Assembly: GCA_905478225.1 (NCBI GenBank)
Contig: CAJQHR010000004.1
Location: forward strand, 62,001 to 126,000
Direction of reading: 5' to 3'
Source of the DNA: an uncultured Crocinitomix sp.
GTDB taxonomy: Bacteria > Bacteroidota > Bacteroidia > Flavobacteriales_D > Crocinitomicaceae
Length of the DNA: 64,000 nucleotides
Made by a program: the position numbers and the translations under genes. Under the pieces are notes generated by a model. That model saw only the letters and a list, made by a program, of their open reading frames with translations. It made no database searches and was not told where the DNA came from. This document shows, one piece after another, positions 5,759 to 23,898 of the stretch. The stretch's first letter is position 1; every line of letters begins with the position of its first letter.

Positions 5759-7801
5759 ATGCAAAATCCACTCTACGCGCCATACGCTGGAAATTTAGAT
5801 ACGATACCATTTAAATCAATAAAAATTGAACATTATAAACCCGCAATAGTTGAGGCGATTGAAATGGCCAAAGCAGAAATTGAGAAAATTAAAAATAATC
5901 CAGTTCCTGCCAGTTTTGAGAATACAATCGCGGCTTATGAGCGCGGCGGTGAACTTTTAGGGCAAATTTCGAGTATATTTTTTAATTTGAATAGTTCAAA
6001 AACTAGCGACGAAATGCAGCAGTTGGCGCAGGAATTATCGCCATTACTCACAGCATATACCAGTAAAATTCAATTAGACGAGGCCCTTTTTATTCGAATT
6101 AAAGACGCCTACAATAACACAGAAAAAAGTGAATTGGACGCCGAGAGTACTTATCTAATCGAGAAAATATATAAAAGTTTTGTGCGGAACGGCGCCAACT
6201 TAAACGACTCAGATAAATCAGCCTTAAAAGCAATTAGCACACGTTTATCGCAATTAAGCTTAATGTTCAGTGAAAATGTTTTAAAAGACAGCAATGGCTA
6301 TGAGATGTGGCTCGAAAACGAAAGCGATTTAGCGGGCTTACCGAACGGAGCAAAAGAAGCTGCAAAACTAATGGCTAAGGGCAAAGGAGAAGAAAATAAA
6401 TGGTTGGTTAATTTAGATTACCCCTCTTATTTGCCCTTTATGAAATATGCCGAGAATCGGTCACTAAGAGAAGAGTTATTCATGGCATTTGGCACAAGAG
6501 GTTGCAAAGACAATGATTTTAACAACGAGGAAACACTAAAAGAACTCGCCAAGTTAAGACATGAAAAAAGCCAGTTATTAGGCTATAAATCGTACGCCGA
6601 TTTTATACTCGAAGAACGCATGGCTAAATCCCCAGACAATGTTTATAAACTTTGGAACGAATTAATTGAAGAAGCATTCCCAAAGGCTCAAGAAGAAATT
6701 GCCGAAGTGCAAGCTATGGCGGATAAACTAAATGGCCCCAATCCAATGCAGCGCTGGGACTTTAGTTATTACGCTGAGAAACTCAAAAACGAAAAATTTG
6801 CATTGAATGATGAACTTTTAAAGCCTTATTTTAAGCTTGAAAATGCAATTTCAGGCGCTTTCCAAACCGCCGAAAAACTATTCCACCTCACGTTTAAAGA
6901 AAGGCAGGATATTGAAAAATATCATAAAGACGTTAAAACATATGAAGTGCTAAATTCGAACGGGGATCATATAGCGATACTTTATGCCGACTTTTTTCCA
7001 AGGGCAAGTAAACGCAGTGGGGCTTGGATGACCTCTTATCGCGGACAAAATAAATACGATTCAAAAAATCAAAGACCGATTACGTCTATCGTTTGTAATT
7101 TCACTAAACCAACAGAATCTAAACCGTCATTGCTCACTTTTGGGGAAGTAACAACGTTATTTCACGAATTTGGACATGCACTGCATGGCATGCTAGCCAA
7201 TGGCCATTATGAGAGTTTAAGTGGAACCTCCGTTTTTTGGGATTTTGTTGAGTTACCGTCTCAATTAATGGAAAATTGGTGCTACGAACCAGAATGTTTA
7301 GCACTATTTGCGAATCATTATGAAACGGGAGAAACAATTCCGCAAGACTTGGTTCAAAAAATTAAGGATAGCATGAATTTTTTGAGTGCATACCAAACTG
7401 TTCGTCAAGTAGCGCTTGGCCAATTAGACATGGTTTGGCATAATTTAACAGCACCTTTGGCTGAAGATGCTAATGTTTATGCCATTGAAAAAGAATCAGG
7501 CGCTAAAACAGAATTATTCCCTGAGATTGAAGGAATAGCGACTTCTTGCGCATTTTCGCACATTTTTAGTGGCGGATATTCAGCAGGATATTACAGCTAT
7601 AAATGGGCTGAAGTATTAGAAGCTGATGCTTTTGAATACTTCACAGAGAACGGGATTTTTGATGGAGAAACAGCACAGCGATTTAGTGACTATATTTTAT
7701 CAAAAGGCGGATCTGCGGACCCAATGGAGCTCTACGTTGGCTTTAGGGGACAAGAACCTTCAACAGCAGCGTTATTGCGTAAAAGCGGATTGAAGAGCTA
7801 A
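5759..7801 (+). CDS. M3-family oligopeptidase (oligopeptidase A / dipeptidyl carboxypeptidase type)
   Basis: A 680-residue cytoplasmic metallopeptidase that cleaves short peptides. HEFGHALHG begins at residue 469, so H469, E470 and H473 form the thimet-oligopeptidase zinc site, and the length matches M3 enzymes such as PrlC and Dcp (about 680). No signal peptide is present. A TTG at 5741 is in frame, but the usual M3 opening (MQNPLYAPY) begins at the ATG at 5759, and the TTG lies within a promoter-like TACACTTTG stretch, so ATG is preferred. It stands as a single gene between a minus-strand cluster and the hydroxylase gene. Telling Dcp from oligopeptidase A needs a full-length comparison. Confidence 0.92.
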   Translation: MQNPLYAPYAGNLDTIPFKSIKIEHYKPAIVEAIEMAKAEIEKIKNNPVPASFENTIAAYERGGELLGQISSIFFNLNSSKTSDEMQQLAQELSPLLTAYTSKIQLDEALFIRIKDAYNNTEKSELDAESTYLIEKIYKSFVRNGANLNDSDKSALKAISTRLSQLSLMFSENVLKDSNGYEMWLENESDLAGLPNGAKEAAKLMAKGKGEENKWLVNLDYPSYLPFMKYAENRSLREELFMAFGTRGCKDNDFNNEETLKELAKLRHEKSQLLGYKSYADFILEERMAKSPDNVYKLWNELIEEAFPKAQEEIAEVQAMADKLNGPNPMQRWDFSYYAEKLKNEKFALNDELLKPYFKLENAISGAFQTAEKLFHLTFKERQDIEKYHKDVKTYEVLNSNGDHIAILYADFFPRASKRSGAWMTSYRGQNKYDSKNQRPITSIVCNFTKPTESKPSLLTFGEVTTLFHEFGHALHGMLANGHYESLSGTSVFWDFVELPSQLMENWCYEPECLALFANHYETGETIPQDLVQKIKDSMNFLSAYQTVRQVALGQLDMVWHNLTAPLAEDANVYAIEKESGAKTELFPEIEGIATSCAFSHIFSGGYSAGYYSYKWAEVLEADAFEYFTENGIFDGETAQRFSDYILSKGGSADPMELYVGFRGQEPSTAALLRKSGLKS

Positions 7802-7843
7802 AAATCACCCTTTTAAGCGATTTTAATGTCGTTAGAGGAATCG

Positions 7844-7851
7844 TACCTTTG
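7844..7851 (+). promoter_or_regulatory. Bacteroidetes -7 element (TACCTTTG)
   Basis: An exact TAnnTTTG match 23 bp upstream of the ATG at 7875. No good -33 TTG is present at the usual distance (TTTTA at 7821), so strength is uncertain. Confidence 0.5.
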
Positions 7852-7874
7852 TAAGCATAATTTAGTCTAAAGGA

Positions 7875-8837
7875 ATGGAAATAATTAGTGACGTATGGGA
7901 TAAAATAGTAGCAGGGCTTATTTTGCCGCTTCTCGATTTCAATGATCCTGAAAAACGACTGAACTATTTTTATCTGCTCTCTTCCGTATTGTTCGCCTAT
8001 TACGTTTACTATAAAGCCAAGCAAAGAATCCCTTTTTACAAATACATTTTCAGTAAAAAAGTATGGTTAAGCAAGTCGGCATTTATCGATTATAAATACT
8101 TTTTTTTTAATGGAATTTTAAAAGTGGCGCTCGTGTTCCCCTTGCTAACCTATTGGCGTTATTTAGGCGTTACAATTAATGATTGGATGGAAGAATCTTT
8201 TGGTTTATCCAGCATTTTACTCACAGAAAGTCAAATCATACTTTATTATACGCTTGCCTTGGTTATTCTTTTAGATTTAAGAATTTACCTAGTCCATTTA
8301 GCCATGCACAAAATTCCATTTTTGTGGGAATTTCATAAAATTCATCACTCCGCTACCACTTTGAATCCGATTACACAATACCGTCTTCATCCAATAGAAT
8401 TAATCATCAATAACCTTTCACATGTCTTTGTATCCAGTTTTCTTATTGGTTTTTTTGATTATTTCTATGCAGGATCGGTGGATATCATCACTTATCTTGA
8501 AATAAATATTTTTACGGTGTTGTTTCTATTCTGGGGATCAACACTAAGACATTCACATGTCAAGCTTAAGTACTTTCATGAATTAGAACGATATCTCCTC
8601 AGTCCTTTTCAACATCAAGTCCATCACAGCAACAATCCAGCGCATTTCGATAAAAACTTAGGCTCGAAATTAGCCATTTGGGATTGGATTTTTGGGACGT
8701 TAATACGTTCGTCAGAAGTCGTTAAAATTCGATTCGGCCTCGGTAAAAATGAAGATGGTAATTACAATAGTTTTTTTAAAACCTTATATATGCCTTTCCG
8801 AAATATTGGGCGATTCTTAGTTCGCAAAAGGAATTGA
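7875..8837 (+). CDS. Membrane di-iron sterol desaturase / fatty acid hydroxylase family protein
   Basis: 320 residues with several hydrophobic segments and three histidine clusters typical of this superfamily: HLAMH, HKIHHS and, near the C-terminus, QHQVHHS, plus RHSH before the last box. These histidines hold a di-iron centre that uses oxygen to hydroxylate or desaturate lipid chains. In Bacteroidetes similar proteins act on fatty acids, carotenoids or unknown membrane lipids, so the substrate cannot be given. It is preceded by a -7 element and followed by a long stem-loop at 8860-8892, so it is probably transcribed alone. Confidence 0.88.
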   Translation: MEIISDVWDKIVAGLILPLLDFNDPEKRLNYFYLLSSVLFAYYVYYKAKQRIPFYKYIFSKKVWLSKSAFIDYKYFFFNGILKVALVFPLLTYWRYLGVTINDWMEESFGLSSILLTESQIILYYTLALVILLDLRIYLVHLAMHKIPFLWEFHKIHHSATTLNPITQYRLHPIELIINNLSHVFVSSFLIGFFDYFYAGSVDIITYLEINIFTVLFLFWGSTLRHSHVKLKYFHELERYLLSPFQHQVHHSNNPAHFDKNLGSKLAIWDWIFGTLIRSSEVVKIRFGLGKNEDGNYNSFFKTLYMPFRNIGRFLVRKRN

Positions 8838-8859
8838 TAAATCAAAACGTCTGAAAATA

Positions 8860-8892
8860 CAAATCCCCTTCATAGAATACGAAGGGGATTTG
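8860..8892. terminator. 12-bp perfect stem-loop, bidirectional terminator candidate
   Basis: CAAATCCCCTTC and GAAGGGGATTTG pair perfectly around a 9-nt loop, 22 bp after the hydroxylase stop. There is no long T-run on either side, so it may also be a 3' end-stabilising stem. It holds the same relative place as the stem at 9217-9250. Confidence 0.6.
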
Positions 8893-9080
8893 CTTTGCTA
8901 CTTTACTAAGTTGTAAGACAATTTGTCAAGATGACCAAATTACCACGAAAAACTCTACTCTTAAACCAACCTTTCGGCTGTTGTCTTATACGCTCAGTGT
9001 TTTAAATATTATCCTCATGCGTTTATAAGGTATACTCAATCATTGCTTTGGGTATCAATGTTAAAACAAATCTATTCAAT
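8893..9080 (-). pseudogene. Degenerate copy of the small ORF at 9299-9436 (unit A)
   Basis: Read on the minus strand, this stretch has a TAGATTTG element (9067-9074), a broken frame containing RFVLTL and, 36 codons on, KSRVF, then a conserved 3' segment (AACTTAGnnnAAGTAGCAA) and the stem-loop at 8860-8892. The same order and spacing occur in unit B (9217-9436). Two in-frame stops show that no protein is made. The rest of 8838-9584 outside the two units shows nothing I can support as a gene. Confidence 0.45.
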
Positions 9081-9216
9081 TCAAGGCGATCAAAAAAGAG
9101 TATTTATACGTGATTTTTAATTATTTCAAGAAAAAATGAAAATTAATTGACCATTTAAGCCGATAAATGGCACTATTGTTTTAGAAGCTTTTGAAATCAA
9201 CACTATCTGAAATAAC

Positions 9217-9250
9217 GAAAGCTGCTCAAGATGTTTCCTGAGCAGCTTTC
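9217..9250. terminator. 12-bp perfect stem-loop of unit B
   Basis: GAAAGCTGCTCA and TGAGCAGCTTTC pair perfectly around a 10-nt loop. It sits about 50 bp beyond the small ORF (minus strand). Its sequence differs from the stem at 8860-8892, although the flanks are similar. No strong T-tract is present. Confidence 0.55.
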
Positions 9251-9298
9251 AATTGCTACTTGAGCTAAGTTTAGCCGTTCAATATTGACATAATTAAA

Positions 9299-9436
9299 TT
9301 ACCATGAAAAAACCCTACTTTTAATAATTAAAATGTCAATTTGGCTTAAACCTAGTTTCTCTAAATCCTTTTGAGGAATGATGATATTACTTGGGTTATG
9401 GGTTTTTAATCTTGCTACAAATTTAAGATCAATTAT
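9299..9436 (-). pseudogene. Tiny AbrB/SpoVT-like ORF without an intact start (unit B)
   Basis: A 45-codon minus-strand frame reads DLKFVARLKTHN, then NIIIPQKDLEKLGL, then KSRVFSW and TAA. The pattern (F-V-A-x-L, I-I-I-P-x-K, L-x-x-L-G-L-x-x-x-D-x-L-x-I) resembles the swapped-hairpin AbrB/MazE DNA-binding fold found in antitoxins and transition regulators. No ATG lies in frame; an ATG at 9440 is one base out of register (MNN then TGA), so a one-base indel probably broke the start. A TAAATTTG element (9418-9425) lies inside the 5' part of the frame. No toxin gene is adjacent. The resemblance is from motif reading only. Confidence 0.4.
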
Positions 9437-9530
9437 TCATTTATAATTCGGTATAAAAACCTAAATATGAATTATTATTTACGTATTTATCATTTAGCCT
9501 AAAAGCCTAATTAATAGAATTTCGCAAAAA

Positions 9531-9562
9531 AAAACTCCCAAACCAGAAGGCATGAGAGTTTT
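9531..9562 (-). terminator. Terminator of the dihydrolipoyl dehydrogenase gene
   Basis: AAAACTC and GAGTTTT can pair around an 18-nt loop, and on the minus strand the stem is followed by a run of nine T. It lies about 20 bp past the stop codon of the minus-strand gene. Confidence 0.55.
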
Positions 9563-9584
9563 TAAAAAATTTATAAACAGTTAA

Positions 9585-10976
9585 TTACAGGTGAATCACC
9601 TCATCATAAGCAGCTGCCGCCGCTTCCATTACCGCCTCACTTAGAGTTGGATGTGGGTGAACTGTCTTAATGATTTCGTGTCCTGTAGTTTCCAATTTTC
9701 GCATGGCTACAATTTCTGCAATGATTTCGGTTACATTCATTCCAATCATATGGCCACCTAATAATTCGCCATATTTTGCATCAAATATAAGTTTAACAAA
9801 ACCGTCGTTTGCACCTGCAGCACTAGCTTTACCTGAAGCTGAAAACGGAAATTTCCCGATTTTAATTTCATACCCGGCTTCCTTTGCTGCTTTTTCAGTC
9901 ATTCCAACTGATGCCACCTCAGGTGAGCAATATGTACATCCCGGAATGTTTCCATAATCTAGCCCATCAACCGACATTCCTGAAATTTTCTCTACACAAA
10001 TTATTCCTTCAGCAGACGCAACATGAGCTAATGCAGGACCAGACACGATATCTCCAATAGCATAATAACCTGGGATATTTGTTTGGTAGAATTCATTTAC
10101 CAATACTTTACCTTTATCTGTTGCAATTCCAACATCTTCTAATCCAATTCCTTCTAAATTTGTTTCAATTCCAACCGCCGAAAGAACGATATCACATTCA
10201 ATGATTTCTTCACCTTTTTTGGTTTTCACGGTCACTTTACAACCTATTCCGCTTGTATCAACCGATTCAACTGATGAGCTTGTTTTAATTTTTAATCCTT
10301 GCTTCTTGAATGAACGCTCTAATTGCTTAGACACTTCTTCATCCTCTATAGGAACAATAACGGGCATATATTCAACGATTGTTACGTCAACACCCATTGT
10401 ATTATAAAAATAGGCAAATTCAACACCAATAGCACCAGATCCTACAACTACCATTTTCTTTGGTAATTTAGGTAGAACCATTGCCTCACGATAACCGATT
10501 ACTTTTTTACCGTCCTGTGGCAGATTAGGTAACTGTCTTGATCTTGCTCCAGTGGCTAAAATTACGCCCTTTTCAGCTTTATAATCAGTAACAACGCCAT
10601 TGGCATCAGATACAGCAACTTTTTTTCCTGCTTTTACCTTACCAGTTCCTTCTATTACGTCAATTTTATTCTTTTTCATTAAGAATTTAATTCCACCGCT
10701 CATCTTTTCTGCTACTCCTCTACTTCTCTTAACGATTCCCGCAAAGTCAGCATCAGCTCCTTTTACATTAATTCCATAATCAGCTGCATGTGATATGTAT
10801 TCAAATACATTTGCACTCTTTAAAAGCGCTTTAGTTGGAATACATCCCCAGTTTAAACAAATACCGCCAAGTTCTGCTTTTTCAACAACGGCCGTTTTTA
10901 AGCCCAATTGTGATGCTCTTATTGCAGCAACATAGCCTCCGGGTCCAGTTCCTATTACTATAATATCGTAAGTCAT
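9585..10976 (-). CDS. lpdA: Dihydrolipoyl dehydrogenase (E3)
   Basis: 463 residues, the family's normal length. The N-terminal FAD site is GTGPGG (residues 9-14), the redox-active disulfide is GGICLNWGCIPTK (C40 and C45 region), the NAD site is VVGSGAIGVEFA, and the C-terminus carries the HPHPTLSE active-site histidine-glutamate pair. It reoxidises dihydrolipoamide in pyruvate and 2-oxoglutarate dehydrogenase complexes and in glycine cleavage, passing electrons to NAD. The E1 and E2 genes are not next to it, as is common in Bacteroidetes. It has its own terminator and an upstream gap of about 215 bp. Confidence 0.96.
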   Translation of the reverse strand: MTYDIIVIGTGPGGYVAAIRASQLGLKTAVVEKAELGGICLNWGCIPTKALLKSANVFEYISHAADYGINVKGADADFAGIVKRSRGVAEKMSGGIKFLMKKNKIDVIEGTGKVKAGKKVAVSDANGVVTDYKAEKGVILATGARSRQLPNLPQDGKKVIGYREAMVLPKLPKKMVVVGSGAIGVEFAYFYNTMGVDVTIVEYMPVIVPIEDEEVSKQLERSFKKQGLKIKTSSSVESVDTSGIGCKVTVKTKKGEEIIECDIVLSAVGIETNLEGIGLEDVGIATDKGKVLVNEFYQTNIPGYYAIGDIVSGPALAHVASAEGIICVEKISGMSVDGLDYGNIPGCTYCSPEVASVGMTEKAAKEAGYEIKIGKFPFSASGKASAAGANDGFVKLIFDAKYGELLGGHMIGMNVTEIIAEIVAMRKLETTGHEIIKTVHPHPTLSEAVMEAAAAAYDEVIHL

Positions 10977-11132
10977 AATTTGAAATTTAATCTGCCGCGA
11001 ATTTAACTAATTATCATTCAATAAATGAAGACAAGATCGAAAAATTTATTTTTGATTTTAGAAATTTTAAACAATCTGTTTTCAACGAAGAAAAACTAAG
11101 CTAAAATCAATTCGGTTCACAGTTGGATTGTT

Positions 11133-11140
11133 TATTTTTG
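11133..11140 (+). promoter_or_regulatory. Bacteroidetes -7 element (TATTTTTG)
   Basis: Exact TAnnTTTG match about 50 bp upstream of the lipoprotein start at 11193; no convincing -33 TTG. Confidence 0.4.
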
Positions 11141-11192
11141 AAATTGAATTAAATTTAAGGAATCAATGCCTCAATGATTCTCAGAATAAAGA

Positions 11193-12257
11193 ATGACCAC
11201 TTATATGAAAAACGGCACCTTAGCAGACAAAAAAACTTCTCTTTTTAAATTTATTTTGACAAATGCACTTATACTTTTGTTCGTTTCTGCTTGCGCTATT
11301 TTTAAAGGGAATAAGGAAATTGAAAGATTAAAATTTTCATATTCATCTACCGCCGAAATAAATTATGGCCATAGCTTTTCACTCAAAACTATGCTGGTAT
11401 ATAAAAATGGGAAAGAAAAAGATATATCGGGTAAGAAAGATTTAACCATAGTGGTCAAAAGAGGTGACTATAAAAATGGTAAAATAAAAATTGGCGCCTA
11501 TCCGCAATCACTCCAACCTGACACCATTCATGTAAAAGCGGTTTATACGGCAAATGATAAAACATATGAATATAGTGAGGCCATTCCATTCAATTATCAA
11601 GGTGCTTTGTTGATTGATTTTAGCGGTGAACCTGGCGCTGATGGCGCTGATGGAGGTAATAAAGGAACACCTTTACTTTTAAGAAACGGTAAAACTGGCG
11701 GCGCAGGACTTATTGGAGCAAAGGGCAATAATGGCCATGATTTAACCATAAACATTTGGAAAGAAAAACAAGGTGAGCGCTACCGAATATCAGTGGCGAA
11801 TCTGGTCACCAATAAAACCTATCAATATACTTATGTCGACAAAGGTTTTGGAATTCAATTTGATGTGCGCGGAGGAAAAGGTGGAACCGGCGGTGATGGC
11901 GGTGATGGCGGAGACGGAAAAGATGGTGTGGTATCAGATAAGAAAACGAAAAATCCTGGGGACGGCGGTGATGGAGGAATTGGAGGCAATGGCGGCAACG
12001 GCGGTGATAGCGGAATGGTATACGTATTCGTTCACCCGACAGCAGAAGTATTGATTGGGCAAATTGCAGTCTACAACTTCGGTGGTAAAGGGGGAAGTTT
12101 TGGCAAAGGAGGCAAAGCTGGTCAGGGCGGTGATCCTGCCGCAGGTCAATACCAAGTTCCAGATGGGGTCATGGGGTCGGAAGGCATAGCCGGCGAGTCA
12201 GGAGTGCAAGGACCACAATTTGAAATTGTCGTAGAGGACTTTGATATTGAAAACTAA
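11193..12257 (+). CDS. Lipoprotein with a collagen-like glycine-rich domain
   Basis: 354 residues. The hydrophobic segment ILTNALILLFVSAC ends in a lipobox cysteine near residue 34. Residues about 35-145 look like a strand-rich domain (LKFSYSSTAEINYGHSFSLKTML). From residue 145 on, short runs such as GADGADGGNKG, GGKGGTGGDGGDGG and GGIGGNGGNGGDSG are spread between ordinary sequence, giving collagen- or ice-nucleation-like G-x-x and GGxGG repeats. Such regions form extended surface structures. It precedes the M61 peptidase gene by 41 bp on the same strand. The start may instead be the ATG four codons later. Function unknown. Confidence 0.72.
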   Translation: MTTYMKNGTLADKKTSLFKFILTNALILLFVSACAIFKGNKEIERLKFSYSSTAEINYGHSFSLKTMLVYKNGKEKDISGKKDLTIVVKRGDYKNGKIKIGAYPQSLQPDTIHVKAVYTANDKTYEYSEAIPFNYQGALLIDFSGEPGADGADGGNKGTPLLLRNGKTGGAGLIGAKGNNGHDLTINIWKEKQGERYRISVANLVTNKTYQYTYVDKGFGIQFDVRGGKGGTGGDGGDGGDGKDGVVSDKKTKNPGDGGDGGIGGNGGNGGDSGMVYVFVHPTAEVLIGQIAVYNFGGKGGSFGKGGKAGQGGDPAAGQYQVPDGVMGSEGIAGESGVQGPQFEIVVEDFDIEN

Positions 12258-14083: not shown

Positions 14084-14608
14084 ATGGCCTTAGAAAAAAT
14101 TGTAAAAACAACCTTCTTTCAACGCATTAGACGCTTTTTAATGGGGAAAGAAGGACCGAATTTACTCACTAGAGTTTCGGTGATTGCTGGGGCGCTCATT
14201 TGGATTTATCTGTTTGCATGGCAATTGATGACATTTGTTTCAACCATGCTTATTGGCAACGTTCACGAGTCGGGTAAACTTCGCAGTGCATTTTATAATT
14301 TGGGTAAAACAAATTATAATTTAAACGATACTGTGAGTACATTGAAAATGCACTCATTGATTCAAATTATAATCTACCTTCTTATTTTGGCCAGTCTAAT
14401 ATTAATTTGGCGAAAACGAAAAGTTGGCTTCTTAATTTATGTGGTTGGAAACGTTGCATCACTTTTCATAACAATGGTTATGATGGGCTGGGGCTATTTG
14501 CTAAATGAAATCCCAATTTTTGATTTCATTCTAATTGGAATCACAACCATTTATTTTTCAATTGGTATTCTTCTCTTTTACAGAAAAGGTAAAGAAGAAT
14601 TACAATAG
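14084..14608 (+). CDS. Four-helix integral membrane protein, unknown function
   Basis: 174 residues with hydrophobic segments at about 28-50, 88-108, 113-135 and 145-168, and a basic C-terminal tail (RKGKEELQ). I recognise no family motif. It begins 37 bp after the M61 gene on the same strand and may be part of the same transcript. Its last 9 bp overlap the convergent RidA gene. Confidence 0.65.
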   Translation: MALEKIVKTTFFQRIRRFLMGKEGPNLLTRVSVIAGALIWIYLFAWQLMTFVSTMLIGNVHESGKLRSAFYNLGKTNYNLNDTVSTLKMHSLIQIIIYLLILASLILIWRKRKVGFLIYVVGNVASLFITMVMMGWGYLLNEIPIFDFILIGITTIYFSIGILLFYRKGKEELQ

Positions 14609-14980
14609 CGCAATCATAGAAATCTCAACATTCACATCTTTGGGTAATTTTGCCACTTGCACAGTCTCTCTTGCAGGATAATCGGCTTCAAAATAAGAGG
14701 CATAAATCTCGTTCACAGTATTAAAATCACCCATGTTTTTCAGGAAAATTGATGTTTTAACAACATTTTCAAAAGTAGCGCCCGACTCGCTTAACACAGC
14801 AGACATATTATTCATTACTTGTGTAGTTTCCTCCTCTACTGAGCCCATGTTTAAAGCTCCGGTTTTAGGATCAATTGCTATTTGTCCGCTTGTGAATAAC
14901 ATGTTGCCTGCTAAAATAGCTTGACTATAAGGACCAATCGCAGATGGCGCATTATCGGTTGAAATTATTTTTTTTATCAT
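14600..14980 (-). CDS. ridA: RidA family reactive intermediate deaminase
   Basis: 126 residues, the normal length for RidA/YjgF/UK114 proteins. Family signatures include APSAIGPYSQAI near the N-terminus, LFTSGQIAIDPKTG, and the C-terminal segment PARETVQVAKLPKDVNVEISMIA, with the conserved arginine before the strand that binds the carboxylate of the imine. RidA hydrolyses enamine/imine intermediates from PLP enzymes such as threonine dehydratase to 2-oxo acids and ammonia, protecting other PLP enzymes. It converges with, and overlaps by 9 bp, the membrane protein gene. No biosynthetic partner is adjacent. Confidence 0.95.
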   Translation of the reverse strand: MIKKIISTDNAPSAIGPYSQAILAGNMLFTSGQIAIDPKTGALNMGSVEEETTQVMNNMSAVLSESGATFENVVKTSIFLKNMGDFNTVNEIYASYFEADYPARETVQVAKLPKDVNVEISMIALL

Positions 14981-15219: not shown

Positions 15220-15378
15220 TTATATAGACCCATGTATAGAACTACAGATTAAAAGATTGGCTGGGACGGAATCTTTAAAAAAAGAGAAGAAAATCCGGAT
15301 ATTTTTACTTGGGTGTTTCATTATAATCTCGTACCCGGTAAATCTGGTTTCTAAAAAGGAAACACCACTTTAGTCTGA
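15220..15378 (+). pseudogene. Remnant of a CHU_C-type C-terminal sorting domain
   Basis: One frame reads PMYRTTD, stop, KIGWDGIFKKREENPDIFTWVFHY, later GKSGF, stop, KGNTTLV, stop. This matches the last 45 residues of the intact paralogues downstream (IGWDGTFK..., NPGVFTW, GNTTLIE/GNVTLMR) with two internal stops (TAA at 15250 and 15352). Everything before it has decayed: 14981-15219 is AT-rich and I see no gene there, and 15379-15562 holds only the leader of the next gene. It is the oldest member of the tandem family. Confidence 0.8.
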
Positions 15379-15562
15379 TAAAAGAATCAATCTCCTTAGT
15401 GAAAAGCGAAAAATTGACTCATCTATTGTATGGAATTATTCTCAGTAAAAAGGGAATTTATTTTAAAGAAGGATAAATATAGTTATCTTGCGGTTTATTT
15501 ATAGCAACCATATGAACTTATGTTCGTTATATGAGATGTATCAACTTATTAAATTCCCTTCT

Positions 15563-18352
15563 ATGAACTTTGCTTATTCTAAATATAAGGCATTTTTGAT
15601 CATACTAATTGCGCTAAACTACAGCCAAATTGGGCTTGCACAATGTGAGATTATAGGACTTGATCCAACGTACTGCATTGAGGACGATCCTGTACTTTTA
15701 ACAGGAGATCCAGGAGGAGGAACTTTTTCTGGTCCAGGAATGACTGGTGCAACTTTCGACCCAGCAGACGCAGGTGTTGGTGTACATACAATAACATATG
15801 ATTTGCCTGCTGCAGAGGATAAATATTATATCAAATCAAATATTGGTAACCCTTGGGGCAGCACTTCGAACCAAGGCGCAATGGATGATGCTTTCGGTGC
15901 ACTTGGCTGGGTCCAAGAATCCTTTGAAGATGCCGCTCCTGGAGCTGTTTTTTCAGCAACTACCTCCTTTGTTTTTCTTGAAGGTAGTGATGGGCACGCA
16001 AGCGAGCTCAATACATTCTTAATCGATAATTTAGCCTTGATTGAAACCTGGGTAGATGAAGGTGGATGTATCCTTATTAACGCCGCGCCGAATGAAGGGA
16101 CTAATATTAATTTTGGATTTGGTGGGACTACATTAATTTATCCTTCCTACGAAAATAGTGTTTTTGGTGTAGACCCTGCTCACCCTGCTTTTTTGGGTCC
16201 AGAACTACCTACAACTACCTCAATGACTGGTCCGTATTACTCACATGGAAAAATTACTGGAGCTGGTTTAACCAATGTATTAACCAATGGGGCTGATGTT
16301 GTATTGGCAGAAAAGCCTTGGGGAGACGGAACAGTAATGTTTGGGGGAATGACCACATCTAATTGGCATTCACCTGCTCCACATAGTAACAATTATCGCG
16401 CAAACTTACTCGTTTATTTAAACAGTTTAGCATTAGTTGGCGCTGCATGTGTTACTACACAAGATGTTGAGGTTTTTGCAAATCCAGACGTTGTTGCAAT
16501 GGTTGATGATGATGAAATTTGTGACGGCGAAGAAGTTATTTTCACTGGCGAAGGATCTGATGATTATGAATGGGATTTAGGCGTTATTGATGGGGATCCA
16601 TTTACTCCAATTGACCTTGGGACCACAACCTATACAGTAATCGGTACAGATGCAATTAGTGGTTGTCAAGGCACCGCTACAGTAGATGTACTAGTGCTTG
16701 CATTGCCAGTTGTAACTGCCTCGGTGGACTTTGATGAAATTTGCATTGGTGAATCAGTAATATTTACTGGTGGAGGCGCAGATGAATATGATTGGGATGT
16801 CATTGGAGTAACTGACGGCGTACCATATGAACCAGCTGATATTGGCACAGTTACCTACACGGTAACAGGTTCAAACTTTACAGGTTGTGAAAGTACAGCA
16901 ACAATTGATGTGACAGTGCATGATTTACCTCCTGTCGTTGCAACTGTGAGTGATATTGAAATTTGTATTGGAGAATCCGTAACGTTCAATGGCGAAGGTG
17001 CTGATTCTTACGTTTGGGATCTTGGTGTTGATGATGGGGTAGCTTTTACTCCTGCTATCGGAACGGTTACTTACACTGTTACTGGAACAATTGGAGCCAC
17101 AAGTTGTGAAAATACGGCGACTATTGACGTTACAGTCCATGACTTACCTACAATAACAGCTGATGTTGCCCCTGATGAAATTTGCGAAGGCGAATCTGTT
17201 ACACTTGCAGGCGGCGGAGGTGATGTTTATGTTTGGGATGTGCCGGGCGCGACGGATGGAGTTGCTTTTACACCGGTTGGAGCAGGTACCGTTGACGCAA
17301 CAGTAACTGGAACGAATAGCACGACTGGTTGTGAAAATACTGCCACAGTGTCTTTTACAGTTAATCCAATTCCAGTTGTGGAAGCCTCTGCAACTACGGT
17401 TGAAGTTTGTTTGACGGAGTCGGTTACTTTAACTGGATCTGGCGCGGACACATATACTTGGTCTCCCCTGGTAACAGATGGTGTTCCGTTTACACCAGGT
17501 GAATTAGGCTCAACAACTTATACAGTTACGGGCACTACCGTTGCAGGTTGTTCTTCAACCGCAACAATTACTATTACCGTTATTGACTGCGATCCGGTAA
17601 TTGCAAATTTTGAATTTGATAATAATATATGTGTTGGAGAATGTATCACTATTTCAGATATTAGTGCTGGACCAGTGGCCACATGGGCCTGGGATTTTGG
17701 TGGGGCTGTTGACCCGACTACATCAACCGTTCAGCACCCAGAATTGTGTTTTAACACAATAGGTGAATTTACTATCGTATTAACAGTTACAAATGCTACA
17801 GGTGCAACATCAACCATTAGTAATTCAATTACTGTAAACGATAAACCTACGATAGATGCGGCAAATGACACCATTATTGAAATAGGTGACTCAGCACCAT
17901 TAATTACTAGCACTGCTTCGTCTGGAGCTTATGTTTGGTCGCCAGATGATCATATTGATTGTGTGAATTGTCCAATCACTTCTGCAAATCCAAGAGAAAG
18001 TATTACATACACAGTTCATTTTACAGATGAAAACGGCTGTACTGCTTCAGATACCGTAATGATACTCGTTAATTTTGTGCAAGGCATTGGAGTTCCAACA
18101 GCATTCTCTCCTAATGGTGATGGATTTAATGATGTACTGTTTGTAAAAGGATTTGGTATTGAAGCTATGAACTTTATGGTTTACAATAGATTTGGTGAAG
18201 CTATATATAGTTCTACCGAGCAAAACATTGGTTGGGACGGTACATTTAAAAATAGAAAACAAAACCCTGGTGTATTTACATGGGTACTCCAATACACCCT
18301 CAATGATGGAAAATATCGACAGTTAAGAGGAAACACGACCTTAATTGAATAA
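15563..18352 (+). CDS. Large T9SS surface protein: N-terminal Ig/amidotransferase-like module, five Ig-like repeats, PKD domain, CHU_C tail
   Basis: About 929 residues from ATG 15563; the frame is open from 15488, but the signal peptide (ending SQIGLAQ) starts at 15563. After a short Ig-like domain (GGGTFSGPGMTGATFDPA) comes a 200-residue module (FVFLEGSDGHASELNTFL, WVDEGGCILINAAPNEG, FGGMTTSNWHSP) that looks like a ThuA/amidotransferase fold without an evident catalytic cysteine. Then come five roughly 75-residue SprB-like Ig repeats, each with EICxGExVxFxGxGAD and TxTYTVTG, a PKD domain (WAWDFGGAVDP), another Ig-like unit and a CHU_C domain (PTAFSPNGDGFNDVL, IGWDGTFK). CHU_C tails are type B T9SS signals handled by PorP/SprF partners, one of which is encoded downstream. 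Likely a surface adhesin; ligand unknown. Confidence 0.88.
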   Translation: MNFAYSKYKAFLIILIALNYSQIGLAQCEIIGLDPTYCIEDDPVLLTGDPGGGTFSGPGMTGATFDPADAGVGVHTITYDLPAAEDKYYIKSNIGNPWGSTSNQGAMDDAFGALGWVQESFEDAAPGAVFSATTSFVFLEGSDGHASELNTFLIDNLALIETWVDEGGCILINAAPNEGTNINFGFGGTTLIYPSYENSVFGVDPAHPAFLGPELPTTTSMTGPYYSHGKITGAGLTNVLTNGADVVLAEKPWGDGTVMFGGMTTSNWHSPAPHSNNYRANLLVYLNSLALVGAACVTTQDVEVFANPDVVAMVDDDEICDGEEVIFTGEGSDDYEWDLGVIDGDPFTPIDLGTTTYTVIGTDAISGCQGTATVDVLVLALPVVTASVDFDEICIGESVIFTGGGADEYDWDVIGVTDGVPYEPADIGTVTYTVTGSNFTGCESTATIDVTVHDLPPVVATVSDIEICIGESVTFNGEGADSYVWDLGVDDGVAFTPAIGTVTYTVTGTIGATSCENTATIDVTVHDLPTITADVAPDEICEGESVTLAGGGGDVYVWDVPGATDGVAFTPVGAGTVDATVTGTNSTTGCENTATVSFTVNPIPVVEASATTVEVCLTESVTLTGSGADTYTWSPLVTDGVPFTPGELGSTTYTVTGTTVAGCSSTATITITVIDCDPVIANFEFDNNICVGECITISDISAGPVATWAWDFGGAVDPTTSTVQHPELCFNTIGEFTIVLTVTNATGATSTISNSITVNDKPTIDAANDTIIEIGDSAPLITSTASSGAYVWSPDDHIDCVNCPITSANPRESITYTVHFTDENGCTASDTVMILVNFVQGIGVPTAFSPNGDGFNDVLFVKGFGIEAMNFMVYNRFGEAIYSSTEQNIGWDGTFKNRKQNPGVFTWVLQYTLNDGKYRQLRGNTTLIE

Positions 18353-18367
18353 AAACAAGATACGCTT

Positions 18368-18406
18368 AAAAAAATCCTGTCGTTTGCAAACGTCAGGATT
18401 TTTTTT
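18368..18406 (+). terminator. Strong rho-independent terminator
   Basis: AAAATCCTG pairs with CAGGATTTT outside a self-complementary CGTTTGCAAACG core (one T:T mismatch), followed by T8. It lies 15 bp after the stop of the surface-protein gene. Confidence 0.88.
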
Positions 18407-18468
18407 GTTTTAAACCAACTCAAATCAGTTCATTAACGTTAATTACATAAAACCTATAAACCCCTTTT

Positions 18469-19629
18469 ATGAATTTTACCAAATTGTTAGTTTCCCTTTT
18501 TTTATTTGGATTTATTTTAATGAGTAACTTCTCAGCTGCTCAGCGCGAAATAACAGCTGAAGATAGCTATTTGTTAACTGATGATCCCGTTGCGTTAACA
18601 GCAACGCCTGATGGTGGATTTTTCGTTGGTCCAGGTATAACAGGGTGACGTTTTTGATCCTGCAGCGGCTGGAGCAGGCGTACATAACATTTCATACATG
18701 GTTCCTGAAAGCGGAACGGGTGATATTTTTTACGTTCAATCAAGTGTAGGTGAACCATGGGGAACACCAACAACTCAGGCACTAATGGATATGGCGTTTG
18801 GTCCAACATCATGGACTTTATTACATTTCGAAACCTTAGATTCTGACGCATTATTTTCAGCATCTACTGATTTTGTTTATATCGACGGAGGTAGTTTACA
18901 CGCCTCTGAGTTGGCATTTTTTCTTGCTGTCAACATAACTGTTATTGAGGAATAGCTTGAGGATGGCGGACGAATTTTCATAAATTCTGCACCAAATGAG
19001 GGCGCTAATATCAATTTTGGTTTTGGTGGAGTTACACTAAATTATTCGGCTCCTGGCAAAGGTACACATGCTACTAATGCCGAAATAGTTGATCTTGGAC
19101 ACTGTTCAGTATTTAGCCCGCATTTACTCATATCTATTGATATGGCTGGAGTTTACTTTAGTCATGGAATATTAACTGGACCAAGTCTAAATACTATTGT
19201 GGTTGACGCGGACAGTCCAGAACGCATGATTCTAGCCGAAAAAACTGGGGCGCTGGCCGCGTCATGTTTGATGGTATGGTTTCGCACAACTTTCAAACTC
19301 CTGCTATTCAAGTTGAAAATTGGCGTGCAAACTTATTATTTTGTATGTACAATGAATTTTGCACTACTGAAATTACGGTAGGCGGTTATGCAAGCATTGA
19401 GAAAGATGAATTAAAGCAACAAATGTATCCTAACCCGGCAAATGAGACTGTTCTTTTTAAATTAACTCCTCAAACAACTGTTGAAATATATTCAATTTCT
19501 GGTACAAAAATTTTGGAAGCAACATTGAATCTAAAATCTTTTGACGTATCTACAATTGAAACAGGTATTTACCTTGTCGTATTCTCAAATGAAACGGGCA
19601 AATCTACACAACAACTGGTTGTGAGATAG
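18469..19629 (+). pseudogene. Broken paralogue of the surface proteins, carrying a type A T9SS tail instead of CHU_C
   Basis: ATG 18469 opens a signal peptide (ending FSAAQ) and the Ig-like start (DGGFFVGPGITG). A one-base insertion near 18650 shifts the frame; the paralogous sequence resumes as DVFDPAAAGAGVHNISY and FYVQSSVGEPWGTP. TAG at 18953-18955 replaces the tryptophan of IEEWLEDGG. A one-base loss near 19244 shifts the frame again into WGAGRVMFDGM and NWRANLLFCMYNE. The end (YPNPANETVLFKL ... ISGTKILEA ... GIYLVVFSNETGKSTQQLVVR) is a type A sorting domain. There are no Ig repeats and no PKD. The decay is light (three lesions in 1.16 kb), so inactivation is recent, or some lesions are sequencing errors. 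Confidence 0.88.
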
Positions 19630-19893
19630 TTAAAAAAGGTCCTTAGCTTATACTTTAATAGATTTCTTTAAAATTTAGTTTGCTTAACTAGCAACCAATT
19701 TACGTTTTACTCGTATTGTAGTTGAGCTACTAATAGCTTTTGGTCAATAATTAAACTATTTGACCTGTTTTAGTTATTTTTTAGCTGAATTTTAATAGAC
19801 GTACTGACAATAGTTAGGTACTCAACACAATTTTCTTTATCTTAGGTGAATTGTATTGGTTACACAACTGCAACAAGAACTAGAAGAACGATT

Positions 19894-22050
19894 ATGAATA
19901 AATTCAAAACCTTTTGGCAAAGTGCATTGCTTATTGCGGCAACACTAGGTATAAACGGAACAACCTTCGCGCAATGCGACTTCACTGGACTTGAAGAAAT
20001 TTACTGTGAAGGAGATGAAGCTGCCACTCTGATTGGAGATCCTCTCGGCGGAATTTTTAGCGGACCAGGAATTGTCGGGGACACTTTTGATCCTTCTATA
20101 GCAGGACCAGGCGTGCATACGATCACTTATGAATTAGCAGGCGGTGGAACTGGAGATAAATTTTATCTAAAAGCAGCTGCAGGTGAACCGTGGGGTGGAC
20201 CAGCAAACCCAAATTCGATGGACTTAGCATTTGGAGCAGGACTTTGGACTATTGGCAATTATGAAACTGTTGATCCAGCTCTGGTGTTTGCACCAACAAC
20301 TGGATTCGTTTTTATGGATGGAGGATCAATGCACGCATCTGAATTAGCAGCGTTTCTAACAACAAATCTCCCAGATATTGAAGCTTGGGTATTTGCTGGT
20401 GGACGACTATTGTTAAATTCTGCACCAAATGAAGGTGGAGATATCGATTTCGGATTTGATGGCACTGTATTAGAATATGCTGCTCCAGGTTCTGGAACAC
20501 ACGTTTGGGATGTTGTAGCAATTGATGCAGCTCACCCTGCCTTATTAGGACCTGAACTTCCTACTTCTACAACAATGGACGGTACTTATTACGGCCACGG
20601 TTTAATCACTGGAGCTGGCTATACAAATGTACTCTCTGAAGATATTGATCCTGCAAAAATCGTATTAGCTGAAAAATGTTGGGGATCTGGTCGTTTAATG
20701 GTTGGTGGTATGACTACTGACAATTTCCATAATCCTGATCCTGCCGCTCAAAATTGGCGTGCAAACCTATACTCTTACATGTATAATAATGCATGCGGTG
20801 GAGGTTGTATGTTAACAAAAGAAGTTGAAGTATTTTCGGAACCTGATGTAACTTTGACAGTAGTACCTGACGTCATTTGTGAAGATGAAGAAGTAATTTT
20901 TACAGCTGGTGGGGCAGATTCTTATGTGTTTGATCCTTTAGGACCTACTAGTGGAACGGCATATGTAGTACCTGCAGTTGGAACAACAACCTATACCGTC
21001 ACTGGAACTGATGCAACTTCAGGTTGTACAAACACGGCTATGGTTGATGTTTTAGTAAATCCTCTTCCAGATGTTACAGCATCTTCAGATGATGAAGAAG
21101 TTTGTTTCGGCGACGCAATGACGCTTATGGGCGGCGGCGCAGCTACATACACTTGGGATTTCGGCGCTATTGACGGAGTTCCATTCACGCCAGGACCAAT
21201 TGGGACAACTATTTATACAGTTACAGGAACAAGTGCCGAAGGATGTGTCTCTACTGCAACAATTTCAATTGATATTATTGATTGCGAGCCAGTTTATGCT
21301 GGATTCACTTTAGATGATAATATTTGTGTAGGAGATTGTATCACATTAACGGACACAAGTGTTGGCTCTACTATTCAGACTTGGGCTTGGGACTTTGGTG
21401 GTGCGGTTGATCCGAATGCTTCATCAGAAGTTAGTCCAACGATTTGTTTTACAAATGTGGGTGAATTCAATATTTCATTAACAATTACAAGTCTTTACGG
21501 TCAAGTGAGCACGGCAGTGCACAGCATAACAGTTAATGCCTTGCCAGTTATGACGACTAGGACTGATACCATTATAACGTTAGGAGGACAGGCCGATCTA
21601 ATTGCGACCAGTACTTCAGACGGATCATATACGTGGACACCAGAAAATAATATTGATTGTGCAGATTGTCCAATCACATGGGCGAGTCCTTTAGATAGCA
21701 CGACTTATAACGTTGTATTAATCGACGAAAATGGCTGTAAAACTGAAGGTGATGTTATTGTCTTAGTAAACTTCGTAAAAGGAGTTGGTATACCATCTGC
21801 TTTCTCACCAAATGGTGATGGAAATAATGATATTCTATATGTAAAAGGCCTTGGATTGGCTGCTGTGAACTTGGTTGTGTACAATAGATATGGTGAAGTT
21901 GTATTTGAAACTAAGGATCAAGAAGAAGGTTGGGACGGAACATTTAAAGGAAGAATGGAAAATCCAGGAGTATTTACATGGACCCTACACTATAATTTCT
22001 TTACTGGAGATAAAGGTTACCAAGATGGAAATGTAACTTTAATGAGATAG
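19894..22050 (+). CDS. T9SS surface protein, paralogue with two Ig-like repeats and CHU_C tail
   Basis: About 718 residues from ATG 19894 (frame open from 19846; the signal peptide MNKFKTFWQSALLIAATLG...TFAQ supports the later start). The order is Ig-like domain (GGIFSGPGIVGDTFDPS), amidotransferase-like module (FVFMDGGSMHASELAAFL, LLLNSAPNEG, VGGMTTDNFHNP), two SprB-like Ig repeats, PKD domain (WAWDFGGAVDP), Ig-like unit and CHU_C tail (PSAFSPNGDGNNDIL, GWDGTFKGR). It has three fewer Ig repeats than the paralogue at 15563. The 264 bp before it (19630-19893) hold no gene; a TATCTTAG stretch near 19840 resembles TATCTTGC before the other paralogue. It precedes porP/sprF by 153 bp. Confidence 0.9.
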   Translation: MNKFKTFWQSALLIAATLGINGTTFAQCDFTGLEEIYCEGDEAATLIGDPLGGIFSGPGIVGDTFDPSIAGPGVHTITYELAGGGTGDKFYLKAAAGEPWGGPANPNSMDLAFGAGLWTIGNYETVDPALVFAPTTGFVFMDGGSMHASELAAFLTTNLPDIEAWVFAGGRLLLNSAPNEGGDIDFGFDGTVLEYAAPGSGTHVWDVVAIDAAHPALLGPELPTSTTMDGTYYGHGLITGAGYTNVLSEDIDPAKIVLAEKCWGSGRLMVGGMTTDNFHNPDPAAQNWRANLYSYMYNNACGGGCMLTKEVEVFSEPDVTLTVVPDVICEDEEVIFTAGGADSYVFDPLGPTSGTAYVVPAVGTTTYTVTGTDATSGCTNTAMVDVLVNPLPDVTASSDDEEVCFGDAMTLMGGGAATYTWDFGAIDGVPFTPGPIGTTIYTVTGTSAEGCVSTATISIDIIDCEPVYAGFTLDDNICVGDCITLTDTSVGSTIQTWAWDFGGAVDPNASSEVSPTICFTNVGEFNISLTITSLYGQVSTAVHSITVNALPVMTTRTDTIITLGGQADLIATSTSDGSYTWTPENNIDCADCPITWASPLDSTTYNVVLIDENGCKTEGDVIVLVNFVKGVGIPSAFSPNGDGNNDILYVKGLGLAAVNLVVYNRYGEVVFETKDQEEGWDGTFKGRMENPGVFTWTLHYNFFTGDKGYQDGNVTLMR

Positions 22051-22203
22051 AGAATCAGGTTTTGCCTCCCCTATTACACTGTTGACAAAACAACGCAAAC
22101 AAATGAAATCCTAAGTTGCATAGGACTTAATACAAATGATTTGATATCTTTAATTAGATAAAAACAGGCAACAAAAGTTTAATTAGCTAATAAATAGCGC
22201 CTT

Positions 22204-23244
22204 ATGAAAAGAATATTAATTGCATCACTTACGGTGCTTGCGAGTATGGCGGGTTTAAATTCCCATTCACAGCAAGATAAGCATTTCAGTATGTTTACTG
22301 AATTGCCCGTATTTCTGAATCCTGCTACGGCTGGGTTTTCAGATCAGCAGCTTCAGCTCTTCACGAATTTCAGGAGTCAGTGGCTTACCGTAACAGACCA
22401 ACCTTACCGTACAATTTCAGCCAGCGTAGATTGGCGAATGTTAGATCCAGAAGCGACAAAAGCAACAAGCTTTATGGGTGCTGGCGTTAATTTTTACAAT
22501 GATAAATCTGGTGTTAGTCAATACACTACGAACATTATCACCTTCCCTATTAACTATGCATTGCAAGTTGGGGTAGCTGATCATCTTTCGTTTGGACTAC
22601 AACCTGCTTTTTATCAAAGAACAATTAACGGCGACAACTTAACTTGGGACAGTCAATGGACAGGAGTTGAATTTGATCAAGGAGTAAGTAATAACGAGCT
22701 TTTATTGAATCAAAATTTAAATATTTCTAGATTTGATATTGGCGCTGGTGTATTTTGGAATAAAAAATTAGAATCTGGTTCAAGTTTTAACCTAGGACTA
22801 TCTGGTCATCACTTAACCAAACAACGTGTAAATATTCTAAACGACGACAGTAAATTGTTTAGAAAATTAACACTACATGGTGAGGGTAATTTCCAGACAT
22901 CAAATTCTAACGTTCAAATTAAACCTGCTTTATTGGCGTTCTTACAAGGGCCGAATAAAGCACTTACGTTTGGAACTGCTTTCAGATTTGCTTTTAAACC
23001 GCAATCTCAACACACAGGGTATTTCAACAATATGCACATGACACTTGGTGGTTACCTTCGTGTAAATGATGCGATTATTGCGTCTGCAATGTTAGAAATG
23101 CACACCTTATCTTTTGGTGCAGCTTATGACTTAAATGTTTCGCGTTTAAATGTAGCTTCCAAAGGAGTTGGAGCAATGGAGTTCTTTTTAAGATACCGAT
23201 TGAACTACGAAGGACGTACTTTAGCAGATCCTACAATTCACTAG
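22204..23244 (+). CDS. PorP/SprF-family type IX secretion membrane protein
   Basis: 346 residues with a signal peptide (ending NSHSQQ) and the family opening: QDKHFSMFTELPVFLNPATAGF, FTNFRSQW, PYRTISASVD. The rest alternates as in an outer-membrane beta-barrel and ends near FFLRYRL. SprF in Flavobacterium johnsoniae is needed to secrete the CHU_C-tailed adhesin SprB, and sprF-like genes commonly follow their cargo gene, as here. I infer that this protein serves the two intact CHU_C proteins upstream, tethering or exporting them. A strong terminator at 23271 closes the transcript. Confidence 0.92.
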   Translation: MKRILIASLTVLASMAGLNSHSQQDKHFSMFTELPVFLNPATAGFSDQQLQLFTNFRSQWLTVTDQPYRTISASVDWRMLDPEATKATSFMGAGVNFYNDKSGVSQYTTNIITFPINYALQVGVADHLSFGLQPAFYQRTINGDNLTWDSQWTGVEFDQGVSNNELLLNQNLNISRFDIGAGVFWNKKLESGSSFNLGLSGHHLTKQRVNILNDDSKLFRKLTLHGEGNFQTSNSNVQIKPALLAFLQGPNKALTFGTAFRFAFKPQSQHTGYFNNMHMTLGGYLRVNDAIIASAMLEMHTLSFGAAYDLNVSRLNVASKGVGAMEFFLRYRLNYEGRTLADPTIH

Positions 23245-23270: not shown

Positions 23271-23297
23271 AAAGGGACGGTTATTACCGTCCCTTTT
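23271..23297 (+). terminator. Rho-independent terminator after porP/sprF
   Basis: AAAGGGACGGT and ACCGTCCCTTT pair perfectly (11 bp) around TATT, ending in TTTT. It lies 26 bp past the stop codon and 32 bp before the next start. Confidence 0.9.
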
Positions 23298-23328: not shown

Positions 23329-23898
23329 TTGAAAATACTTTTACTCGATAATTACGACTCATTCACCTATAATCTGGTTCATTACATTGAAGGATTTGAT
23401 GTAAGTGTTGATGTTATGTACAATGATAAAGTTGATTTAGAACAAGTTGAGTCGTATGATAAAATAGTCCTCTCCCCTGGCCCAGGTCTACCAAAAGACG
23501 CCGGGAAATTAATGGAGCTTATTGGTGCTTTTCACGAGTCAAAACCTATACTTGGCGTTTGTTTAGGTTTTCAGGCATTAGTTGAGTTTTATGGCGGTAA
23601 GTTGTTCAATCAGGAATTGGTGAAGCACGGCGTGGCTGAAAAAGCCAAATTCAATCAAAATTCACGCTTATTTGAAAATACAGCTGACGAATTTAAAATT
23701 GGTTTATACCATTCTTGGGCCGCCCAACCAGCATCTTTTCCAGAAGTTTTTATGATTACCGGGAATAGTGAGAATGGTGTTATAATGGCGTTTGAACATC
23801 AAAATTTACCAATTGCTGGCGTGCAATTTCACCCTGAGTCCATCTTATCAGAGCACGGATTTCAAATTGTTGAAAACTTCATTTTCAATTTTAAATAA
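23329..23898 (+). CDS. Class I glutamine amidotransferase, anthranilate/aminodeoxychorismate synthase component II
   Basis: 189 residues from a TTG start (TTGAAAATACTT); no ATG is available nearby, and the protein begins with the typical MKILLLDNYDSFTYNL. The catalytic triad is C78 (GVCLGFQ), H168 and E170 (QFHPES), and the oxyanion loop is SPGPG at 49-53. It hydrolyses glutamine and feeds ammonia to TrpE or PabB for tryptophan or folate synthesis. It stands alone with no trpE/pabB next to it, which fits pabA or an amphibolic subunit; sequence alone does not separate trpG from pabA. Confidence 0.9.
   Translation: MKILLLDNYDSFTYNLVHYIEGFDVSVDVMYNDKVDLEQVESYDKIVLSPGPGLPKDAGKLMELIGAFHESKPILGVCLGFQALVEFYGGKLFNQELVKHGVAEKAKFNQNSRLFENTADEFKIGLYHSWAAQPASFPEVFMITGNSENGVIMAFEHQNLPIAGVQFHPESILSEHGFQIVENFIFNFK

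Follow-up and report, generated by a model that had tools for sequence, protein, structure and literature searches.

Does a run of related surface-protein genes, some intact and some decayed, generate new surface variants, or is it an inherited set that is losing members? The question is raised by a locus in an uncultured Crocinitomix sp. (assembly GCA_905478225.1, contig CAJQHR010000004.1, positions 62,001–126,000; here the window, 64,000 nt), where ridA (14600–14980, minus strand) and trpG/pabA (23329–23898) bracket a gene remnant, an intact gene (B), a pseudogene (C), a second intact gene (D) and a porP/sprF gene. A preliminary description had taken the first four as copies of one protein type that could supply antigenic or adhesive variation by recombination, with one PorP/SprF possibly serving them all. 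Our reading instead, with a probability of about 0.6, is that of an inherited A-B-C-D array now worn down: its members share one predicted GATase1-like head, borne on 14, 5, 0 and 2 immunoglobulin-like (Ig-like) repeats, respectively, and the product of the adjacent porP (PorP-1) probably exports D and anchors it. Literature searches found no account of this locus.

Results

Intact and decayed genes in the window

Gene B (15563–18352, plus strand, from the probable ATG start of an open reading frame (ORF) spanning 15488–18352) encodes a signal peptide (recognised by eye), a head composed of an N-terminal Ig-like and a GATase1-like part, a stalk of five Ig-like repeats (16481–17587), a PKD domain and a type B sorting tail of the type 9 secretion system (T9SS), with CHU_C at 18089–18304. 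Gene D (19894–22050, plus strand; ORF 19846–22050, probable ATG start at 19894) carries the head module at 19972–20802 (GATase1-like part 20149–20802), two Ig-like repeats (20842–21279), PKD (21289–21534) and a type B tail (21787–22047). The N-terminal modules of B and D are homologous (54% identity, E 7e-84), PKD_4 exceeds the Pfam cut-off in both (only just in D, 27.1 bits against 27), and both tails pass for TIGR04131 (NCBIfam; B 45.5 and D 48.3 bits, cut-off 35) and for CHU_C (PF13585, Pfam; B 52.1 and D 52.9 bits, cut-off 27). PorP-1 (22204–23244, plus strand), a PorP/SprF-family outer-membrane protein and the predicted shuttle or anchor of D, is encoded directly downstream of D after a gap of 153 nt and matches the family models over its full length (PF11751, 126.6 bits against 22.3; TIGR03519, 161.7 against 90.55). 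B has no PorP/SprF gene directly downstream, as C, D and a hairpin intervene, and is an orphan in that sense. The preliminary description had thus placed the tail remnant, B, the pseudogene, D and the adjoining porP/sprF correctly, and its five and two Ig-like repeats and the N-terminal module, PKD domain and CHU_C tail shared by the intact pair were all recovered.

The remnant (15232–15378, plus strand), located by tblastn with intact A proteins from related genomes, retains nothing but tail, the final ~48 codons, of type B (CHU_C), with in-frame stops at 15250, 15352 and 15376; weak similarity reaches back to ~15130. It matches three A tails at 60–65% and twelve other tails at 44–60%, the best match being an A tail and one B tail tying with the lowest A. 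From synteny and this similarity it probably belonged to gene A. Gene C (18469–19629, plus strand; tblastn with intact C proteins) is broken into three pieces (18469–18645, 18644–19243 and 19234–19629) in two frames, with a TAG at 18953. Both decayed genes therefore lie where they had been reported, but C is not of the same protein type as its neighbours: its head resembles that of D (E 1e-60), it has no Ig-like stalk repeat and no PKD, and its sorting tail (~19423–19626) is of type A (TIGR04183, 47.4 bits against a cut-off of 23). Six intact C relatives (P0071–P0075 and P0078, three of them from genomes compared here) are 385–387 residues long, have PF18962 listed and contain zero stalk repeats; the nearest, P0074, matches the pseudogene pieces at 72–79%. 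P0074 is probably encoded on the same contig as the A-type protein P0107 (1594 residues, 14 repeats), each being listed on a contig of 19016 bases.

A terminator-like hairpin with a U run lies between B and C (18369–18404, plus strand; RNA fold −16 kcal/mol, z −6.3) and occurs at the same place in L067, L068 and L069 (four of four loci, including the window). Another follows porP, before trpG/pabA (23271–23296, plus strand), and is likewise placed in L067 and L068 (3/3 loci scanned). Because hairpins follow both B and porP, B may be transcribed on its own, and C, D and porP together. Terminator calls were relied on only for long stems at conserved places: terminator-like sites are in excess only in L068 (19 versus 9.9; window 4 versus 6.4; L067 13 versus 10.3), and promoter-like sites are no commoner than in shuffled sequence. 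Tandem Repeats Finder detected no tandem array within the locus.

The array in related Crocinitomix genomes

The comparison set comprised nine Crocinitomix genomes, that of the window and eight more of its genus, and reveals species-level differences only; the six named loci that the head domain picked out all belong to Crocinitomix. Both L067 and L068 read ridA, A, B, C, D, porP, trpG, with A of 1600–1601 residues (14 repeats), B of 939–976 as listed ORFs (5), C of 386–387 and D of 716–718 (2); in L069 the contig carrying A to D is truncated at either end, and porP lies on a separate one. C. algicola (L070) has ridA, D, porP and trpG only, G005 (L073) has ridA, a gene fossil, a gene X with seven repeats, D, porP and trpG, and the short G008 contig (L077) holds a cut gene, X′ (no PKD match) and D. 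Neither D nor PorP-1 was found in G007 or in G002, the latter only 84% complete. Copy number thus ranges from 1 to 4 between species, and the array in the window has lost A and C.

The G005 fossil (L073, minus strand, ~9645–10065) comprises, in different frames, ~75 residues from the start of such a protein (signal peptide and first Ig-like domain) and ~59 from its end, a type B tail, and is an internal-deletion relic at the same first array position as the remnant in the window. P0091 (213 residues) is a longer ORF of a close relative of this fossil, possibly truncated. If the genes correspond, the first-gene losses in the window and G005 were separate events: the D heads of the window, G001 and G004 form a group that leaves out G005, and both G001 and G004 have an intact A. 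The homologous N-termini, together with an array rather than unrelated single genes in relatives (C. algicola having the single copy), uphold the idea of one gene family; on comparative sequence evidence, this is an old, inherited array of T9SS surface proteins, largely conserved by position, from which members are being lost in several lineages.

Ig-like stalks and their repeat counts

Stalk repeats were counted with an Ig-repeat profile built from the stalk repeats themselves. An AlphaFold2 model of two consecutive repeats is all-beta (pLDDT 96), and two cysteines are invariant in each repeat (18/18 rows). Gene A has 14 repeats in all three loci and in P0107; B has five in 4/4 loci and in five further B-like database proteins (B-like relatives, 930–976 residues); D has two in 7/7 loci, as do 16 of the 22 D-like proteins from the database, a count from which P0130 (922 residues, >65% head identity) was excluded. 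Repeats correspond position by position across species, with a few diagonal cells tied or beaten by a sister repeat in A, and the counts of A, B and D are constant despite near-saturated synonymous divergence. Gene A in L067 (4980–9785) has a higher-order period of three, repeats 3, 6, 9 and 12 being alike, as are 4, 7 and 10, which suggests that its stalk grew by units of ~222 residues.

The four best Foldseek matches in the PDB to two stalk repeats are fragments of GhpA (grappling hook protein A) of Aureispira (E 4e-5 to 4e-4, TM-score by query 0.54–0.67). GhpA, identified from PDB titles, has >5000 residues and was matched by fragments, and the likeness concerns the stalk repeats.

Head phylogeny, exchange and selection

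In a tree of 34 head modules, a clade of D heads unites the window with G001, G004 and G006 (100/99), the C. algicola D coming next (100/98); B heads form one clade (99/96), and C heads, including the C piece in the window, another (100/99). The B, C and D heads of four genomes thus cluster by array position; the D head of G005 is unplaced.

An initial permutation test for exchange detected no tract shared by B and D of the window (254 and 393 of 2000 permutations), whose DNA has a median identity of 60% (75% in the best 75-nt window). Variation by B/D exchange in the window is therefore not supported. Because it included the signal peptides, this test was also positive for comparison pairs (0 and 3 of 2000), and it was repeated on the mature head. 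In G001, an internal tract of the A head is closer to the neighbouring B than to its orthologue (51:9 informative sites; 1/2000 permutations at all sites, against 57, 670, 679 and 911 in the other four comparisons), with no signal at third positions (1219/2000). Of the recombination tracts that the preliminary description had proposed looking for, this A/B tract is a candidate and is suggestive at most. The comparison of repeat and copy number in relatives that it also advised gave, between species, fixed counts for A, B and D, 7 versus 5 for X, and one to four copies.

Ratios of non-synonymous to synonymous substitution (dN/dS) are rough, with dS of 1.1–1.8, and were ~0.07 for A (0.111/1.63) and B, 0.07–0.10 for D, 0.04–0.06 for PorP and 0.14 for C (G001 versus G004); neighbour pairs that could be computed gave 0.05–0.11.

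Sorting tails and predicted PorP/SprF partners

In the sections of the literature drawn on here, type A tails use PorV, and type B tails use a cognate PorP/SprF that is often encoded directly downstream (PMC12618676, PMC9143113). Some known type B cargoes are orphans, and one shuttle can serve related orphan tails: in Flavobacterium johnsoniae three orphan tails sharing >44% use one shuttle and a 68% pair cross-talks, while pairs at 43% and 26% do not (PMC12618676).

The window genome has 57 type B tail matches, 50 of which pass the cut-off, and 14 PorP matches. Fifty-two of the 57 tails were compared (of the seven under the cut-off, five were left out and two retained), of which six adjoin a PorP. 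B and D belong to a clade of seven tails (100/99), the others being two on contig C24 and one each on C13, C33 and C1, and within it only D and the C1 tail adjoin a PorP. The PorPs beside these two, PorP-1 and PorP-2, are sisters (412 bits mutually; the next match scores 92, or 114 in the nine-genome search). Across the nine genomes there are 55 tails of this type (E ≤1.5e-33; next 5.7e-27) and, in G008, a partial match adjoining PorP-1, giving 2–12 per genome, and 17 PorPs at least 50% identical to PorP-1, two in each genome and one in G002. All but one of these 17 (G007:C18) lie directly behind such a tail. PorP-1 itself stands directly behind a D-type tail in 7/7 of the genomes that have it (D being split over two contigs in G006 and G008), and D and PorP-1 are present or absent together.

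These patterns make it likely that PorPs are shared among tails of the clade, and it is plausible that PorP-1 serves A, B and D, B and D having tails 55% identical within one clade. By the literature rule (the cited part of PMC12618676), C would leave by the PorV route. The earlier suggestion that one PorP/SprF could serve all members is thus plausible for A, B and D, and does not extend to C with its type A tail.

Contig C24 of the same genome (L083, G000:C24) carries two further type B proteins with Ig stalks, encoded in tandem (6180–8717 and 8806–12048; 845 and 1080 residues), with D-clade tails; no head-domain match was found in this pair, and no PorP match on C24.

The head module

The D head is predicted by structure modelling to have a GATase1/ThuA-like fold, in line with the amidotransferase-fold-like module proposed earlier, and its structure matches include enzymes and non-enzymes alike (6–13% identity). 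The nearest functional parallel found is the levan-binding protein Bt1761, which we take to be the match 8aa2_G. In this surface glycan-binding protein of Bacteroides thetaiotaomicron a ThuA-like domain binds levan, and the head here is of similar fold at 12% identity; Bt1761, however, is a lipoprotein of a SusCD locus with a C-terminal binding domain, whereas the head is N-terminal and on T9SS-sorted proteins. Among 32 aligned head sequences, His209, Glu234, Asn149 and Asn153 (model numbering) are invariant, and Trp74 and Trp139 occur in 32, Trp92 in 31 and Trp237 in 30, the tryptophans being positions of the head alignment. No conserved catalytic cysteine was found in this alignment (best column 11/32 rows), so a Cys-dependent glutaminase is unlikely.

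Seven head-bearing proteins gave no head match over cut-off in Pfam, or in NCBIfam for the two of them scanned there. PF27332 is precomputed for the head-bearing relatives P0138, P0141, P0143 and P0144 and was not reported by the Pfam scan here, and the ‘unnamed’ status of the head may accordingly not last. When solved structures were searched with a profile of the head alignment, stalk, PKD and tail parts were matched; the head made up a small part of this profile, and the search was uninformative about it, with one weak match at profile positions 33–76 (E 0.25).

In a search of 59 genomes, full-module matches were obtained in all nine Crocinitomix genomes; outside Crocinitomix, among the matches listed, the GATase1-like part is strong only in G053, the others matching the short Ig-like part. 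Head-bearing database relatives have type A or type B tails, with single cases of other domains (PF07589, PF02412 and PF11617). In P0092, P0069 and P0066 the head occurs in proteins without a T9SS tail, with a PEP-CTERM domain in the first and thrombospondin-type-3 or MopE-like parts in the other two; it also occurs in P0153, a protein named from Polaromonas. Proteins of 672–674 residues with two tandem head modules and a type A-like tail are encoded in three Crocinitomix genomes (L071, L074 and L085), and a head-domain stretch with one in-frame stop lies near a contig end in C. catalasitica (L065, 10001–10813).

Flanking genes

Eight neighbouring genes were scanned against Pfam. The trpG/pabA-like gene (23329–23898) directly behind the array encodes a true class I GATase (PF00117), and its position next to genes for GATase1-like heads is likely a coincidence. 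Upstream of the array, a glycine-rich protein with no Pfam match (11193–12257) is kept in L067, L070 and L073.

Discussion

An inherited array that has worn down is the reading suggested by the four-gene order from ridA to porP-trpG in relatives, the grouping of heads by position, repeat counts that hardly vary, the absence of intact A and C genes from the window, the type A tail of C and the shared presence or absence of D and PorP-1, all of them read from sequence. As a working model, A, B and D would leave through the type 9 translocon, being collected by PorP-1 and possibly also by its sister PorP-2, and would remain on the surface with the same head held at different distances from the cell; less certainly, the head might bind glycan, as the ThuA-like domain of Bt1761 does. 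The array is likely to serve as a constant surface set, exported together with one partner protein, and not as a generator of variants.

Several observations weigh against this reading. With a hairpin between them, B and PorP-1 may not be co-transcribed, and over the last 100 residues the B tail is 55% identical to that of D and 58% to the PorP-2-linked tail. A heads lie beside B heads, the A of G001 being nearer B than the A of G004 (97/99), and in G008 the D head clusters with that of the neighbouring X′ (98/96, X′ on a long branch), so orthology by position is imperfect; local conversion or recent duplication is possible there. Repeat number can change, as gene X has 7, 7 and 5 repeats, with 7 versus 5 at 93% head identity. 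Six of the 22 D-like proteins (673–727 residues, at least 65% head identity) score three repeats, the third match being provisionally read as another Ig-like part because these proteins are no longer than the rest. Finally, a predicted GATase1-like fold does not fix the function of the head.

Plain redundancy and decay would account for part of the pattern: only D with PorP-1 would matter, and A, B and C would be dispensable duplicates with no joint role. C. algicola keeps D and PorP only, A is a remnant in the window, with a fossil at the same first position in G005, and C is broken here. However, constraint on B (dN/dS ~0.07) and A (0.111/1.63) matches that on D in the genomes compared, and both have kept their repeat numbers; we consider this account rather unlikely. 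Also doubtful, and put forward tentatively, is a graded-length display, in which the head would stand at four fixed heights (0, 2, 5 and 14 Ig-like units), selection would act on stalk length itself, one locus would combine both sorting types (A and B), and a small PorP subfamily (1–2 per genome) would serve 2–12 scattered clients of one tail clade.

That the head is a secreted enzyme of hydrolase or amidase type, and not a binding domain, would suit a GATase1/ThuA-like fold, which includes enzymes, and the four invariant His, Glu and Asn residues; the lack of a conserved cysteine column (≤11/32) and display on Ig stalks, which fits a binder, make it unlikely. The weakest alternative, the variation device of the preliminary description, in which recombination between copies and repeat slippage would yield new adhesive or antigenic forms, can point to homologous, adjacent copies, to the G001 A/B tract and A–B head grouping, to the G008 D–X′ grouping and to the 7 or 5 repeats of X, but is improbable given position grouping, no shared tract in B and D of the window at ~60% DNA identity, a G001 tract not seen at third positions, fixed A, B and D counts and strong purifying selection. 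Between-species data thus favour slow inheritance with repeated loss, and not recombination-driven variation.

Kgp-type surface proteins of Porphyromonas gingivalis are exported by the T9SS. The array resembles such rearranging proteins in having adhesin domains in the same phylum; in the cited part of PMC5266723, P. gingivalis variants are mosaic and unrelated to strain phylogeny, whereas most copies here track position and phylogeny. D and PorP-1 follow the order of SprB–SprF and Fjoh_3952–Fjoh_3951 of F. johnsoniae, a type B gene and then a PorP/SprF gene (relevant part of PMC12618676). Unlike those pairs, several paralogous cargoes precede one PorP here, one of them with a type A tail. In the same source Fjoh_1677 serves three orphan type B cargoes (>44% identical), as established by pull-down and secretion assay, whereas sharing between the seven related tails and two sister PorPs of one genome here is a prediction.

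The head, lacking a Pfam or NCBIfam match over cut-off in the proteins scanned, is nevertheless found on several different sorting tails, and stalk length, with its repeat counts fixed, lends itself to testing. How many type B cargoes one PorP/SprF shuttle serves has been little tested, the literature found dealing with a few pairs from F. johnsoniae and P. gingivalis. Crocinitomix is a natural setting for such a test: 8/9 genomes combine this tail clade with a pair of PorPs from one subfamily, and C. algicola retains the minimal D–PorP pair at this locus.
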